DNA from: Polyangia bacterium
GTDB taxonomy: Bacteria > Myxococcota_A > Polyangia > Polyangiales > Sandaracinaceae
Assembly (NCBI GenBank): GCA_030426845.1
Contig: JAUHXR010000061.1
Span: 1-34,188, forward strand
DNA: 34,188 nt
Direction: 5' to 3'
Shown here piece by piece: positions 29,360 to 34,188 of the stretch. Each line of letters opens with the position of its first letter. The stretch's first letter is position 1. The notes beneath the pieces were generated by a model. The model ran no database searches, was not told the origin of the DNA, and worked only from the letters and a program-made list of their open reading frames with translations. Both the position numbers and the translations under genes were made by a program.

Positions 29360-29684
29360 GACCCAACTCTGGCTCTCGAAACCAGGATTTTGGCCTCCGA
29401 CGCCGAGAGCTGGGTCTCCCAAGCCTACCGTTTGGCTTCCCGCGCCCAGAGTTGGGTCTCGAAACGAGAACTTCGGCCTCTGACGCCCAGCCCTGGCTCT
29501 CGAACCCAACCGTTTGGCTTCCCACGCCCAGCGTTGGGTCTCCAAGCCTACCGTTTGGCTTGGCCGCCCAGAGTCGGGTCTCGAGGCCTACCGTTCGGGG
29601 TGGTCGCCCGGCGCTGGGTCTCCAAGCCTGCCGGTTGGCTTGGCCGCCCGAAGCTGGGCTCTCGAGACCCGCGTTCGACCGGCC
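29360..29684. repeat. Degenerate 40-42-bp tandem repeat, eight units, hairpin-forming
   Basis: Units start at 29360, 29401, 29443, 29484, 29525, 29565, 29605 and 29645, with lengths 41, 42, 41, 41, then four of exactly 40. Each begins near CGCCCAGxGxTGGGTCTC. Units 5 and 7 contain arms CCAAGCC and GGCTTGG around different 8-nt loops, unit 2 keeps AAGCC/GGCTT, and a smaller dyad CCCA-N4-TGGG is present in several. Length is not a multiple of three and frames shift between units, so it is not coding. There are no unique spacers, so it is not CRISPR. Its GC looks lower than that of its surroundings. Confidence 0.85.
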
Positions 29685-29752: not shown

Positions 29753-29766
29753 ACTGACACGTCAGT
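29753..29766. promoter_or_regulatory. TetR-like palindrome upstream of HAD/reductase operon
   Basis: Arms ACTGAC (29753-29758) and GTCAGT (29761-29766) are separated by AC, 39 bp before the HAD-like gene start. A weak -10-like TAAAAG (29746-29751) lies just upstream. The size and symmetry fit a repressor operator covering the transcription start of the operon. The cognate regulator is unknown. An ACTGAC half-site also occurs at 20789-20794 in the tetR-lon region. Confidence 0.55.
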
Positions 29767-29804: not shown

Positions 29805-30479
29805 ATGCCTGACGCTGCACTGTTCCGGCTCGAGGGCACGCTGAGCCCGCGACCCACGCTGACTGCCGCCGCCTGGCTCGCGCTCAACGCGAGGCGGGTG
29901 CGCGCGCGCCTGCTCGGCCTGTCGAGCTTCGCCCTCGCGGGGCCGCTGTCGGCGGGCCCTGGCCTCCTCCGCGACCCGGGCCGCGCCCTGCGCCTCGCGT
30001 GGTCGAGCCTCGAGGGGATGAGCGAGGACCGGCTCGTGGTGCTGGGCGAGGTCTACGCGGAGGAGCACCTGCTCGGCGCCCTCTCCGAGGTCGGGCTCGG
30101 GCTGCTCGAGGAGTGCAAGCGCCGCGAGATGCGGCTCGTCCTCCTCAGCGACAACCTCGACGTGATCGCGCGGCCGGTCGCGGCCCACCTCGGGTTCGAC
30201 GTGGTGATCAGCAACGCGATGGAGCTCGACGCGCACGACCGCGCGACGGGAGAGCTCCGGCCGCCCGTGATCGGCCCCGCGCTCGGCGGGCGCCGGCTCG
30301 AGGAGCGGCTCGCGGAGCACGGCGTCGATCTGCGGCGCAGCTCGGTCTACGGGAGCCACGGCGCCGACTCGGTGCTCCTCGGGGCGGCGGAGCTGCCCTG
30401 CGCGGTGACGCCGGACCGCGAGCTGCGGCGCATCGCGCGCGACTGTGACTGGCCGGTGGTCGAAGGGAGGCTCGGATGA
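29805..30479 (+). CDS. HAD-fold protein with degenerate catalytic motifs
   Basis: 224 residues from ATG at 29805. Overall pattern is a HAD-IB (SerB/PSPase-like) phosphatase: motif I region ALFRLEGTLSPR, motif II LVLLSDNLDVI, and ARPVAAHLGFDVVISNAMEL before the C-terminal motif VYGSHGADSVLLGAA. The DxDGT nucleophile pair is R8 and E10, and the DSxxD magnesium-binding motif reads GSHGADS. Phosphatase activity is therefore unlikely. The stop overlaps the next gene's ATG, so it is translationally coupled to the reductase and may act as its partner, scaffold or sensor (inference). Confidence 0.82.
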   Translation: MPDAALFRLEGTLSPRPTLTAAAWLALNARRVRARLLGLSSFALAGPLSAGPGLLRDPGRALRLAWSSLEGMSEDRLVVLGEVYAEEHLLGALSEVGLGLLEECKRREMRLVLLSDNLDVIARPVAAHLGFDVVISNAMELDAHDRATGELRPPVIGPALGGRRLEERLAEHGVDLRRSSVYGSHGADSVLLGAAELPCAVTPDRELRRIARDCDWPVVEGRLG

Positions 30480-32116
30480 TGGGCGTGCGCGAGTCGTTCC
30501 GTGGGCGGCACCTCCTGGTGACCGGCTTCACGGGCTTCCTCGGCAAGGTCTGGGTGGCGTTCCTGCTCGACCACCTCGAGGAGGTCGGGCGGATCACGCT
30601 GCTCGTGCGGGGCCGCCGCGACGAGAGCGCGGTCGCGCGGGTCCGCGCGATCTTCGAGTCGTCGCCCGCCCTGCGCCCGCTGCGCGACAAGCACGGCGAT
30701 CGCCTGCTCGAGCTGGTGCGCGACAAGATCGAGGTCCTCGAGGGCGACGCCAAGCGGCCGCTCCTCGGCATCGACCCGGGCACCCTCGCCCACCTCGCGC
30801 CCCGCCTCGACGCGGTCGTCCACTGCGCGGGCCTCACCGACTTCTCGCCCGACCCGATCCAGGCGATCGACGTCAACGTCATCGGCGCGCTCCACGCCGC
30901 CGACGTCGCGGCGCGCACCCCCGACCGCCGCCTCGTCCACGTGAGCACCTGCTTCGTCGCGGGTGAGGTCGACGGCGACGTCCCCGAGGTGGTCGACCCG
31001 GGCGTCTCCCCCAACGGCACGCGCTTCGACGCCGAGATGGAGATGGTGAGCCTGCGCTCCGCCTGCGCGACGGTGGACGAGCGCGAGGGCGGGCCGCGCA
31101 AGATGGCCGCGCGCCGCGGCCGCGTGGAGATCGGCACCAAGCGCGCCCAGGCCCTCGGCTGGCCGAACCTCTACACCTACAGCAAGGGCCTCGCCGAGCA
31201 CGCGCTCGCGGCGCGCGACGACGTCCGCGTCTGCTTCGTCCGCCCGTCGATCGTCGAGTGCGCGCGGAGCTACCCGTTCCCGGGATGGAACGAGGGCCTC
31301 AACACGAGCGGCCCGATCGTGTGGATGTGCAGCGGCTTCGCGTGGAAGGTCCCGATGCGGGCCGACAACTGCTTCGACGTCGTCCCCGTCGACACCGTCG
31401 CCCGCGGGATGACCCTCGCGGTGGCCGATCACCTCGCGGACCGCGCGCCCGAGGTCGTCCAGCTCGCGAGCGGCGACCACAACATGTTCACGTTCGACCG
31501 CGCGCTCGATCTCACCGCGCTCAAGGTCCGCCGCGGCTACGTGCCGAGCGGGGTGAGCGCGCTCGAGCGGGCGCTGCTCACGCACCTCGACTCGACCGCG
31601 ATGGATCGCGGCGCCGACCGCAGCTACCTGCTGCCGGCCGCCCAGCGCGCCACCCAGTGGCTGCGCGATCGGTTCCGGGGCTTCGACAAGGATCGCCACC
31701 TGCCGCGCGGCGTCGCGAACAAGGACGACATCGAGGCCAAGGTCAAGGACGCGCACCTCAAGCTCAACAAGACGAGCATGCTCCTCAAGTCGATCGAGCA
31801 GGTCTGGAAGAGCTACCAGCCGTTCATCCACGACTTCGACTACCGCTTCTCGACCCGCAACGTGCGCGCGCGGACCGCGCAGCTCTCCGAGGACGAGCGG
31901 CGCGCGTTCGGCTGGGACCTCGAGACGCTCTCGTGGCGCACCTACTGGATGGACGTCGAGATCCCCGGCCTCGACCGCTGGTCGCTCCCGCTGCTGCGCG
32001 GCAAGGACGTCGAGGGCGACGAGCCGGTCGATCTCGGCGGCGACCCGCCGGCCGTCCCGACCCGCGCGCTGCCCGCCGGTCGCGAGACGCGCCTGGACGC
32101 GGGGGGCGCCGAGTGA
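30476..32116 (+). CDS. Fatty acyl-CoA reductase-like NAD-binding protein
   Basis: 546 residues; the start is ATG at 30476 or 30479, with AGGGAGG at 30464-30470. Rossmann motif TGFTGFLG (16-23), HCAGLTDFS and N in DVNVIGAL, HVSTCFVAGE, and catalytic YTYSK (Y233/K237) place it in the extended SDR/NAD_binding_4 (male-sterility) family. The region PFIHDFDYRFSTRNVRA with FGWDLETLSWRTYWMDVEIPGL-like content near the C-terminus is typical of alcohol- or aldehyde-forming acyl-CoA reductases of the mycobacterial FcrA type. It probably reduces a long-chain acyl thioester with NADPH. The operon neighbours suggest lipid modification; the substrate is unknown. Confidence 0.86.
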   Translation: MMGVRESFRGRHLLVTGFTGFLGKVWVAFLLDHLEEVGRITLLVRGRRDESAVARVRAIFESSPALRPLRDKHGDRLLELVRDKIEVLEGDAKRPLLGIDPGTLAHLAPRLDAVVHCAGLTDFSPDPIQAIDVNVIGALHAADVAARTPDRRLVHVSTCFVAGEVDGDVPEVVDPGVSPNGTRFDAEMEMVSLRSACATVDEREGGPRKMAARRGRVEIGTKRAQALGWPNLYTYSKGLAEHALAARDDVRVCFVRPSIVECARSYPFPGWNEGLNTSGPIVWMCSGFAWKVPMRADNCFDVVPVDTVARGMTLAVADHLADRAPEVVQLASGDHNMFTFDRALDLTALKVRRGYVPSGVSALERALLTHLDSTAMDRGADRSYLLPAAQRATQWLRDRFRGFDKDRHLPRGVANKDDIEAKVKDAHLKLNKTSMLLKSIEQVWKSYQPFIHDFDYRFSTRNVRARTAQLSEDERRAFGWDLETLSWRTYWMDVEIPGLDRWSLPLLRGKDVEGDEPVDLGGDPPAVPTRALPAGRETRLDAGGAE

Positions 32117-33255
32117 CCCGCATGTTCGTGACCGGGGGCACCGGCTACCTCGGCTCCTACGTGGTCAACCGCCTGCTCGCCGACCCGTCGGTCGAGCGGC
32201 TCACCCTGCTCAGCCGCGCGCGCGACCGCGCCGAGGGGGTCGAGAAGCTGTGGCGCGCGCTCCAGCTCCACGTGGACGCGGACGCCTTCTACGAGATGCT
32301 GCCGCGGATCGAGCTCGTCACCGGCGACCTGAGCGCGCCGGAGCTCGGCCTCTCGAAGACCGAGCGCGAGCGCGTGGTGAGCGAGCACGACGCGGTGCTC
32401 CACATCGCCGCGAGCCTCAACCGAAAGAGCAGCAAGGCCTGCTTCAACGCGAACCTCCGCGGCTCGCTCTCGGTGATCGAGCTGGTGCGCGAGCTCGCCG
32501 AGCGTCAAGGCGGCATCCGGCGCTACGGCGTGGTGTCGACCACCGCGGTGAGCGGCCAGCGCGAGCACGAGGTGGTGACCGAGGACGCCTCGATCGACTG
32601 GGATCGCTCCGACTACGACCCCTACGCGCGGACGAAGAAGTTCGCCGAGCACATGACCCACCGGCTCCTCCCCGACGTGCCCAAGGTCATCATGCGGCCG
32701 CCGACGGTGATGGGCGACAGCCGCTTCCCCGAGACGACCCAGTTCGACATGGTCCGCGTGACCTGCGCGATGTTCGACCTGCCCGCGGTGCCGGTGCACC
32801 CGGACACGCGCCTCGACTTCGTCCCCGCCGACTTCGTCGGCCCCGCGATCGCGGAGCTGATGCTCAAGCCGGAGCTCCGCTGGGACACCTACCACCTCAG
32901 CTCCGGCGAGGGGGCCGCGGTCGCGCGCGACGTCCACGCCGCGCTCGTCGCCGAGGGCCTCCACGCGCCGCGGATGATGCCCGGCCTCTTCCCGTTCTTC
33001 GAGGTGGTGAGCAACCAGCTCGCGGGCGCGCCCCGGGGCAAGGTCTCGCTCTTCGCGTCGCTCGTGAAGGTCTTCCTCCCCTACTTCACCAACGACGTCG
33101 TCTTCGACAACACCCGCGTCGTGGAGGAGCTCGGCCGCCGGCCGGCGCCCTTCATGAGCTACTTCCCCGCCACCTACCGCTGGGCCAAGTCGGTCCGCTT
33201 CACCTACCCCTACCGGCCCCTGCCGGCGCGGGATCTGCCGAGGGCCGCCGAATGA
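32113..33255 (+). CDS. Extended SDR / NAD_binding_4 family reductase
   Basis: 380 residues from GTG at 32113, whose GTGA overlaps the upstream stop; ATG at 32122 is an alternative giving MFVTGGTGYLG. TGGTGYLG (7-14) binds the cofactor, HIAASLN follows the family's HxAA pattern, and DPYARTK carries the catalytic Y171/K175. RPPTVMGDSRFPETTQFD and DTRLDFVPADFVGPAI match thioester-reductase or acyl-CoA reductase-like SDRs. It is a paralogue-like neighbour of the upstream reductase with a shorter C-terminus. It may act on the aldehyde or on a polyketide or sugar intermediate. Its stop overlaps the next start. Confidence 0.86.
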   Translation: MTRMFVTGGTGYLGSYVVNRLLADPSVERLTLLSRARDRAEGVEKLWRALQLHVDADAFYEMLPRIELVTGDLSAPELGLSKTERERVVSEHDAVLHIAASLNRKSSKACFNANLRGSLSVIELVRELAERQGGIRRYGVVSTTAVSGQREHEVVTEDASIDWDRSDYDPYARTKKFAEHMTHRLLPDVPKVIMRPPTVMGDSRFPETTQFDMVRVTCAMFDLPAVPVHPDTRLDFVPADFVGPAIAELMLKPELRWDTYHLSSGEGAAVARDVHAALVAEGLHAPRMMPGLFPFFEVVSNQLAGAPRGKVSLFASLVKVFLPYFTNDVVFDNTRVVEELGRRPAPFMSYFPATYRWAKSVRFTYPYRPLPARDLPRAAE

Positions 33256-34188
33256 GCATGGCCATGCGTTTGCTGGGGCGCGCCGCCAAGGGCGCGCTCT
33301 CGATGGCGCGCGAGAGCGTCGACCCGGACCGCTTCCTCCAGCTCGGGGTGACCGGCCTGGTCGAGGCGGCGCGCGCGCGGCACGAGTCGGACCCGATGCC
33401 GCCGTGGCGTTCGGGCGAGCCGCTGCGGCTCTTGCTCGCGGGCTACGTGGGCACCCGGAACACCGGCGCGGACGTCCGCACCGAGGAGATGATCCGCCAG
33501 CTCCGGCACGTGTTCGGCGACGACCACCTCGAGCTGTCGATCTGCACGATCGACCCCGCGCTCACCCGCGGCTACTTCCGCGGGGCGCGCCAGCTCCACA
33601 TCCCGCAGCTCTTCCACAAGTTCCTCTACGACACGGTGCGGAGCCAGCACGGCGTGATCGCGTGCGAGGGCTCGATGTTCAAGAGCAAGTTCGCGAACGC
33701 GCTCTCCACCATGATGGTGGGCGCGCTCGGGCTCGCGGCGGCCGAGGAGAAGATGGCGCTCGGCTATGGCGGCGAGGCCGGCGCGATGGACGAGCCGCTC
33801 GAGCGCCTCGTGGAGAAGCACTGCGCCGACACGCTGATCATCTGCCGCAACGAGGAGTCGCGCGTCATCCTCGACCGCCTCGGCGTGCCGACCGAGGTCG
33901 GGACCGACACCGCGTGGACCTTCGAGGCGGGGCCGGTCGAGCGCGCCGAGCGGCTGCTGATGCGCGCCGGGTGGGACGGCGAGACCCCGGTGGTCGCGTT
34001 CTGCCCGATCAACCCGTTCTGGTGGCCGGTGAAGCCCGAGCCGCTGAAGGCCGCGCTCCACGGGCTGACCGGCGGCTACGACGAGGCGCACTACAAGAGC
34101 ATCTACTTCCACAACCACGGGCCCGAGGTGGAGCGGAAGCTCGAGCGCTACCTCCGCGGCCTCGCCGGCGCGCTCAAGGACTTCCGTC
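33252..34188 (+). CDS. Polysaccharide pyruvyl transferase family protein, partial
   Basis: From ATG at 33252 (MSMAMRLLGRAAKGALSMAR) the frame runs to the window edge: 312 codons, no stop. LLLAGYVGTRNTGADVRTEE, ACEGSMFKSKFANALSTMM, KMALGYGGEAGA and IICRNEESRVILDRLGV, then GTDTAWTFEAG, are characteristic of the PS_pyruv_trans domain, which adds ketal pyruvate to sugars of surface polysaccharides or glycolipids. ATGA overlap with the preceding reductase makes it the fourth coupled gene of the operon. A glycan or glycolipid target with a lipid part is suggested by its neighbours. C-terminus missing. Confidence 0.87.
   Translation, partial: MSMAMRLLGRAAKGALSMARESVDPDRFLQLGVTGLVEAARARHESDPMPPWRSGEPLRLLLAGYVGTRNTGADVRTEEMIRQLRHVFGDDHLELSICTIDPALTRGYFRGARQLHIPQLFHKFLYDTVRSQHGVIACEGSMFKSKFANALSTMMVGALGLAAAEEKMALGYGGEAGAMDEPLERLVEKHCADTLIICRNEESRVILDRLGVPTEVGTDTAWTFEAGPVERAERLLMRAGWDGETPVVAFCPINPFWWPVKPEPLKAALHGLTGGYDEAHYKSIYFHNHGPEVERKLERYLRGLAGALKDFR

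Follow-up and report, generated by a model that had tools for sequence, protein, structure and literature searches.

A ten-gene operon across two contigs

The window, by which we mean the whole stretch of 34,188 nucleotides analyzed, comprises all of contig C108, and its end falls inside a gene. Leading up to that end, four open reading frames on the plus strand encode a HAD-like protein (29805–30479, 224 aa), a FAR-type protein (30476–32116, 546 aa), a second reductase of the NAD_binding_4 family (32113–33255, 380 aa) and a PS_pyruv_trans family protein, hereafter PPT (33252–34188), whose frame is ended by the contig end. Each of the three junctions is a 4-nt overlap (ATGA, GTGA and ATGA, in this order). 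A palindrome, ACTGACACGTCAGT (29753–29766; consensus ACTGACRYGTCAGT), lies 38 bp upstream of the HAD start codon. Just 5′ of the operon, positions 29362–29663 hold a degenerate tandem repeat of ~40 bp, CCCAGCGCTGGGTCTC...CCGTTTGGCTT, in about 7 copies with 69–70% matches.

The ends of C108 and contig C84 share an exact 127-bp overlap, across which the PPT reading frame runs on into C84 to give a full length of 496 aa. We infer from this overlap that the two contigs join; the join is supported by the intact PPT frame and by the same gene order in unbroken loci. On C84 (L003 coordinates, minus strand), the PPT remainder (6455–5775) is followed by at least six genes, all on one strand. These encode an enoyl-CoA hydratase/isomerase (ECH; 5778–4849), an ACP with a DSM serine (4852–4607), an acyl-AMP ligase (4602–2866), a YegS/DAGK-type lipid kinase (2852–1941), a PlsC acyltransferase (AT; 1944–1111) and a TetR protein (1114–464). 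A second ligase, common between PPT and the hydratase in other loci, is absent from the window's operon. Directly 3′ of the TetR gene, an alternating run of CACGTG hexamers occupies approximately positions 439–390 of the L003 minus strand.

In the completed ten-gene operon, neighboring genes overlap by 4 nt at seven of nine junctions. An earlier, sequence-only reading of the window had described the first four genes as a coupled unit; the overlaps agree with a single operon, of which these four are only the front part.

Pfam and NCBIfam scans return the families which that reading had assigned to the four genes: PF12710 for the HAD (64.8 bits), PF07993 for both FAR (157.6 bits) and the second reductase (130.9 bits), and PF04230 for PPT once completed (36.2 bits, cut-off 25.3). 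The C-terminal Sterile domain of FAR scores 31.2 bits, under its cut-off of 35.4, and the best solved-structure match of FAR is the fatty acyl-CoA reductase PDB 7eoz (residues 2–513, 142 bits). The second reductase is thioester-reductase-like, with MxaA as its best PDB match. The YxxxK motif is invariant in both enzymes (105 of 105 scoreable sequences each), and FAR, reductase, ACP, ligase, kinase and AT all retain the key residues that were checked. A lipid pathway, as envisaged in the sequence-only reading, is supported.

The HAD protein is a conserved pseudo-enzyme

The window's HAD carries FRLEGT in place of FxDxDGT, in keeping with its earlier description as degenerate. Among the 98 scoreable cluster members, the nucleophile Asp has become Arg in 96 and Lys in 2, the second Asp is Glu in all 98, and the DxD nucleophile motif of HAD-IB phosphatases is missing from every one. 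Judged by these residues, the cluster HAD is a conserved pseudo-enzyme that has lost both catalytic aspartates. In many acidobacterial loci (L193:6484–8877, L150:6378–8834 and others), HAD and FAR form a single open frame of ~800 aa. The dead HAD would probably serve as a scaffold or partner of FAR.

Gene order is conserved in two phyla

Of 377 genomes sampled from the phylum, 49 contain a strong PPT match, one per genome and 46–77% identical; other hits are noise. The 40 loci fetched follow the order HAD, FAR, reductase, PPT, (second ligase), hydratase, ACP, ligase, kinase, AT and TetR; some lack genes, either where a contig ends or in certain lineages. A search of GTDB genomes seeded with PPT returned 309 relatives, and the best 80 of these, which include Nannocystis, Paraliomyxa, Sandaracinus and many Acidobacteriota, keep the gene order. 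The order is conserved in most loci across many Myxococcota families and the Acidobacteriota, far outside close strains, the point that the gene-order search proposed alongside the earlier reading had been meant to test. Its accompanying remark that a pyruvyl transferase and acyl reductases do not normally occur together is wrong for this group, in which the grouping is the rule.

A plasmid search gave one weak match. In the open-access literature searched we came across no account of the cluster; subscription literature lay outside that search. In genome G073 (L145:11509–14673), PPT and the hydratase are separated by genes for an amidohydrolase and for a protein that no Pfam family matches, and this region of the locus contains an additional palindrome.

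Relation to the elb ether-lipid genes

Reviews list the elb genes as elbB (HAD), elbC (function unknown), elbD (FAR–ligase–ACP–acyltransferase) and elbE (reductase), with elbD and possibly elbE being important for the alkyl and vinyl ether lipids of M. xanthus (PMC9131029). We recognized elb loci by their architecture rather than by name. In this phylum, most FAR homologues that are not part of a PPT cluster lie in 1400–2260 aa frames of the ElbD kind. By blastp against canonical loci, FAR aligns with the ElbD N-terminal domain (30–34% over ~550 aa, 226–246 bits), the cluster ligase with the ElbD ligase domain (30–33%, 216–250 bits) and the cluster AT with the ElbD AT (46–58 bits, E 7e-9 to 8e-5), while the ACP module is assigned by Pfam only. 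The window's HAD is 28–33% identical to ElbB of three loci, with 31.7% among the values, and the second reductase is weakly similar to ElbE (22–27% identity, E about 4e-4).

The cluster and the elb operon (VEPE/AEPE/TG-1; ElbB–ElbD–ElbE of M. xanthus) therefore have much in common: both occur in myxobacteria, both place a HAD gene upstream of FAR, and both contain the FAR, ligase, ACP and AT modules, all four of them in one operon here. However, the modules are fused in a single ElbD (~1600 aa; open frames of 1421–2257 aa) and are separate frames in the cluster. The cluster further differs in its dead HAD, whereas ElbB in canonical elb loci retains DxD; in its added PPT, hydratase and, often, second ligase; in the TetR gene and dedicated operator-like palindrome of many loci; and in having no LarAH-type ElbC. 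In some canonical elb loci (L207:14700–15665, L213:14369–15319), a lipid kinase gene directly follows ElbE, as one is also present in the PPT cluster.

In the loci checked, ElbC belongs to the LarAH14/15/16 family (nickel-pincer, NPN-dependent hydroxyacid isomerase). The ElbC of L206:6398–8011 scores 769 bits against a curated cut-off of 740, an ElbC-type gene also lies between HAD and ElbD in L200 and L207, and 102 of 377 phylum genomes have a LarAH14/15/16 match over the cut-off. That PPT might be ElbC is ruled out, ElbC being a LarAH protein. A canonical ElbD elsewhere in the window's genome was likewise rejected: family searches of this genome give neither an ElbD-like second FAR nor a LarAH (ElbC) match. 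The ten carrier genomes checked have a single such FAR each; it lies inside the cluster and is not accompanied by a frame of ElbD size.

With LarAH as the marker, elb is found in 113 and PPT in 49 of 377 genomes; they share 1 genome against 14.7 expected (Fisher p 1.6e-7, genomes treated as independent). Cluster and elb are nearly mutually exclusive. In part this exclusion reflects phylogeny, yet cluster and elb alternate inside families f13 and f29, and it is therefore more than a deep-lineage split. According to an independent survey of 2025, Nannocystis and Sandaracinus amylolyticus lack elb (PMC12766979), and we find the cluster in Nannocystis genomes and Sandaracinus-labelled MAGs. The cluster appears to stand in for the myxobacterial ether-lipid genes.

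The palindrome is a candidate TetR operator

The 9.4-Mb genome of the window contains one exact copy of ACTGACRYGTCAGT, and none of the reversed-pattern control. The palindrome precedes HAD in 27 of 27 TetR-bearing clusters and in 0 of 19 clusters without TetR. This association marks ACTGACRYGTCAGT as a candidate operator of TetR, and the control element that the sequence-only reading had proposed upstream of the genes behaves as expected of an operator. TetR would repress the operon through it.

In three genomes (G073, G014 and G310), the palindrome also occurs shortly before genes for ~1160-aa proteins (at loci among L251, L252, L253, L254 and L255). These proteins contain two activase domains (PF01869, BcrAD_BadFG-type) and DUF2229, as seen by Pfam on G073 and G014, by two-stretch activase hits on G073 and G310, and by DUF2229 in all three. 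In G073 and G014, it also precedes the gene for a ~530-aa partner. PF01869/DUF2229 proteins have other roles too. PlsA homologues with two PF01869 domains have been validated as Ger, glycerol ester reductase (PMC13274423), and genes of this PlsAR/Ger architecture (plasmalogen synthase, glycerol ester reductase) thus share the operon's palindrome. The palindrome-bearing copies come from three genomes of one family only. In the window's genome, homologues of the ~1160-aa and ~530-aa genes adjoin on C195, outside the operon and not under the palindrome. Ger-like genes occur in 23 of 49 cluster-bearing genomes, a count that lacks a proper background rate and hence makes no claim of enrichment. The shared palindrome links the regulon with the making of ethers in this family, without proving the connection.

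Predicted product and alternative readings

The reading we favor, with slightly better than even confidence, is that one operon of about ten genes, autoregulated by TetR, directs synthesis of a fatty-alcohol-based membrane lipid, most likely an alkyl-ether glycerolipid, and is a split-gene counterpart of ElbB/ElbD. The chemistry of ElbD, the standard of comparison, is itself only partly known. In this pathway, (I) the ligase would activate a fatty acid and load it onto ACP, (II) FAR would reduce the acyl thioester to a fatty alcohol, (III) the second reductase and hydratase may tailor a second chain or an intermediate, (IV) PlsC and the lipid kinase would build and phosphorylate the glycerolipid, and (V) the PPT-family enzyme could transfer PEP-derived pyruvate onto the lipid, either at its head group or at the glycerol diol. 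The ether-type product, its substrate and each of these reactions are predicted from gene content.

Alternatively, the product may be a fatty-alcohol-containing lipid other than a glycerol ether, such as a wax ester, an alkyl phosphate or a modified acyl lipid, with only the alcohol-forming front end in common with elb. FAR, ACP, ligase, hydratase and AT would suit fatty alcohol production as such, the operon has no ether-forming AGPS, and PPT and the hydratase are without elb counterparts. We regard this alternative as a realistic possibility but a doubtful one: against it stand the mutual exclusion of cluster and elb, the Ger-like genes under the operon's palindrome in three genomes and the HAD-upstream-of-FAR order common to elb.

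The sequence-only reading had instead proposed a pyruvylated glycolipid, and a surface glycolipid of this kind, or a glycan with a lipid anchor, would give PPT the role for which its family is known, the pyruvylation of glycans. Membership of that family (WcaK, CsaB) is indicated by several lines of evidence. PF04230 is matched by 31 of 31 PPT homologues at E 0.01 or better, as well as by the completed protein. A PPT profile matches E. coli WcaK over 325 columns (95.5% probability, E 1.6e-8), with the RxH and GxDTAW motifs aligned, whereas WcaL, the glycosyltransferase neighbor of WcaK used as control, reaches 0.3%; against PDB sequences the profile gave no match. The fold predicted on the L121 homologue (75% identical, pLDDT 92.5) is GT-B and resembles lipid glycosyltransferases such as PimA and MGD1. 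Its Foldseek/VIA matches are GT-B sugar epimerases and glycosyltransferases, and no pyruvyl-transferase structure is among the matches listed, which excludes nothing. Since the GT-B fold is common to glycosyltransferases, it fixes neither the acceptor nor the donor of PPT. The PPT group is remote from the characterized enzymes of the family (46–77% identical within the group) and, contrary to them, is set in a lipid operon without glycan genes.

In fact, extension past position 34188, suggested earlier as a search for glycosyltransferases, acyltransferases or flippases, recovered the PlsC acyltransferase and neither of the other two. Because the completed operon contains no glycosyltransferase or flippase, the term "glycolipid" is unsupported; a polymerase is absent as well, and all other operon genes are lipid or regulatory. 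We therefore consider a pyruvylated surface glycolipid improbable. The similarity to ElbD ether-lipid genes, not raised in the sequence-only reading, is the better lead, and under our favored reading of an ether-type glycerolipid the PPT-family enzyme probably modifies the lipid.

Chance adjacency of unrelated housekeeping lipid genes is negligible as an explanation and is ruled out by the conserved order: single genes of these families are common, but their order is kept in two phyla, with pervasive 4-nt overlaps and a dedicated operator-like palindrome.

Occurrence in Acidobacteriota and wider relevance

Strong PPT matches also occur in the Acidobacteriota, in 13 of 396 genomes sampled. In the tree, the PPTs of this phylum group as a single clade (support 1.0), and the cluster is therefore old there. 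The ether lipids produced by certain acidobacteria are a source of the branched tetraethers that serve as climate proxies. Large and conserved, this lipid operon of myxobacteria and acidobacteria is found in lineages without elb, where its genes are candidates for the synthesis of ether or fatty-alcohol lipids. It also sets an enzyme of the pyruvyl-transferase family within a lipid pathway. Solibacter usitatus makes ether lipids without ElbD (PMC10087280), and the operon can therefore be tested against an open question.

A bolder extension, which we offer speculatively and consider rather unlikely to hold as a whole, is that the operon represents a third bacterial route to ether-type lipids. 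It would replace ElbD in Nannocystaceae, Sandaracinaceae and parts of the Acidobacteriota, with the PS_pyruv_trans enzyme giving an undescribed pyruvylated or PEP-derived ether lipid.

Four loci carry titles from other groups, namely Rhodobacterales (L135), Klebsiella (L169), Acidimicrobiia (L177) and Kiritimatiellae (L128). Their clusters are of myxobacterial or acidobacterial type, and these entries are probably mislabelled or mixed MAGs.
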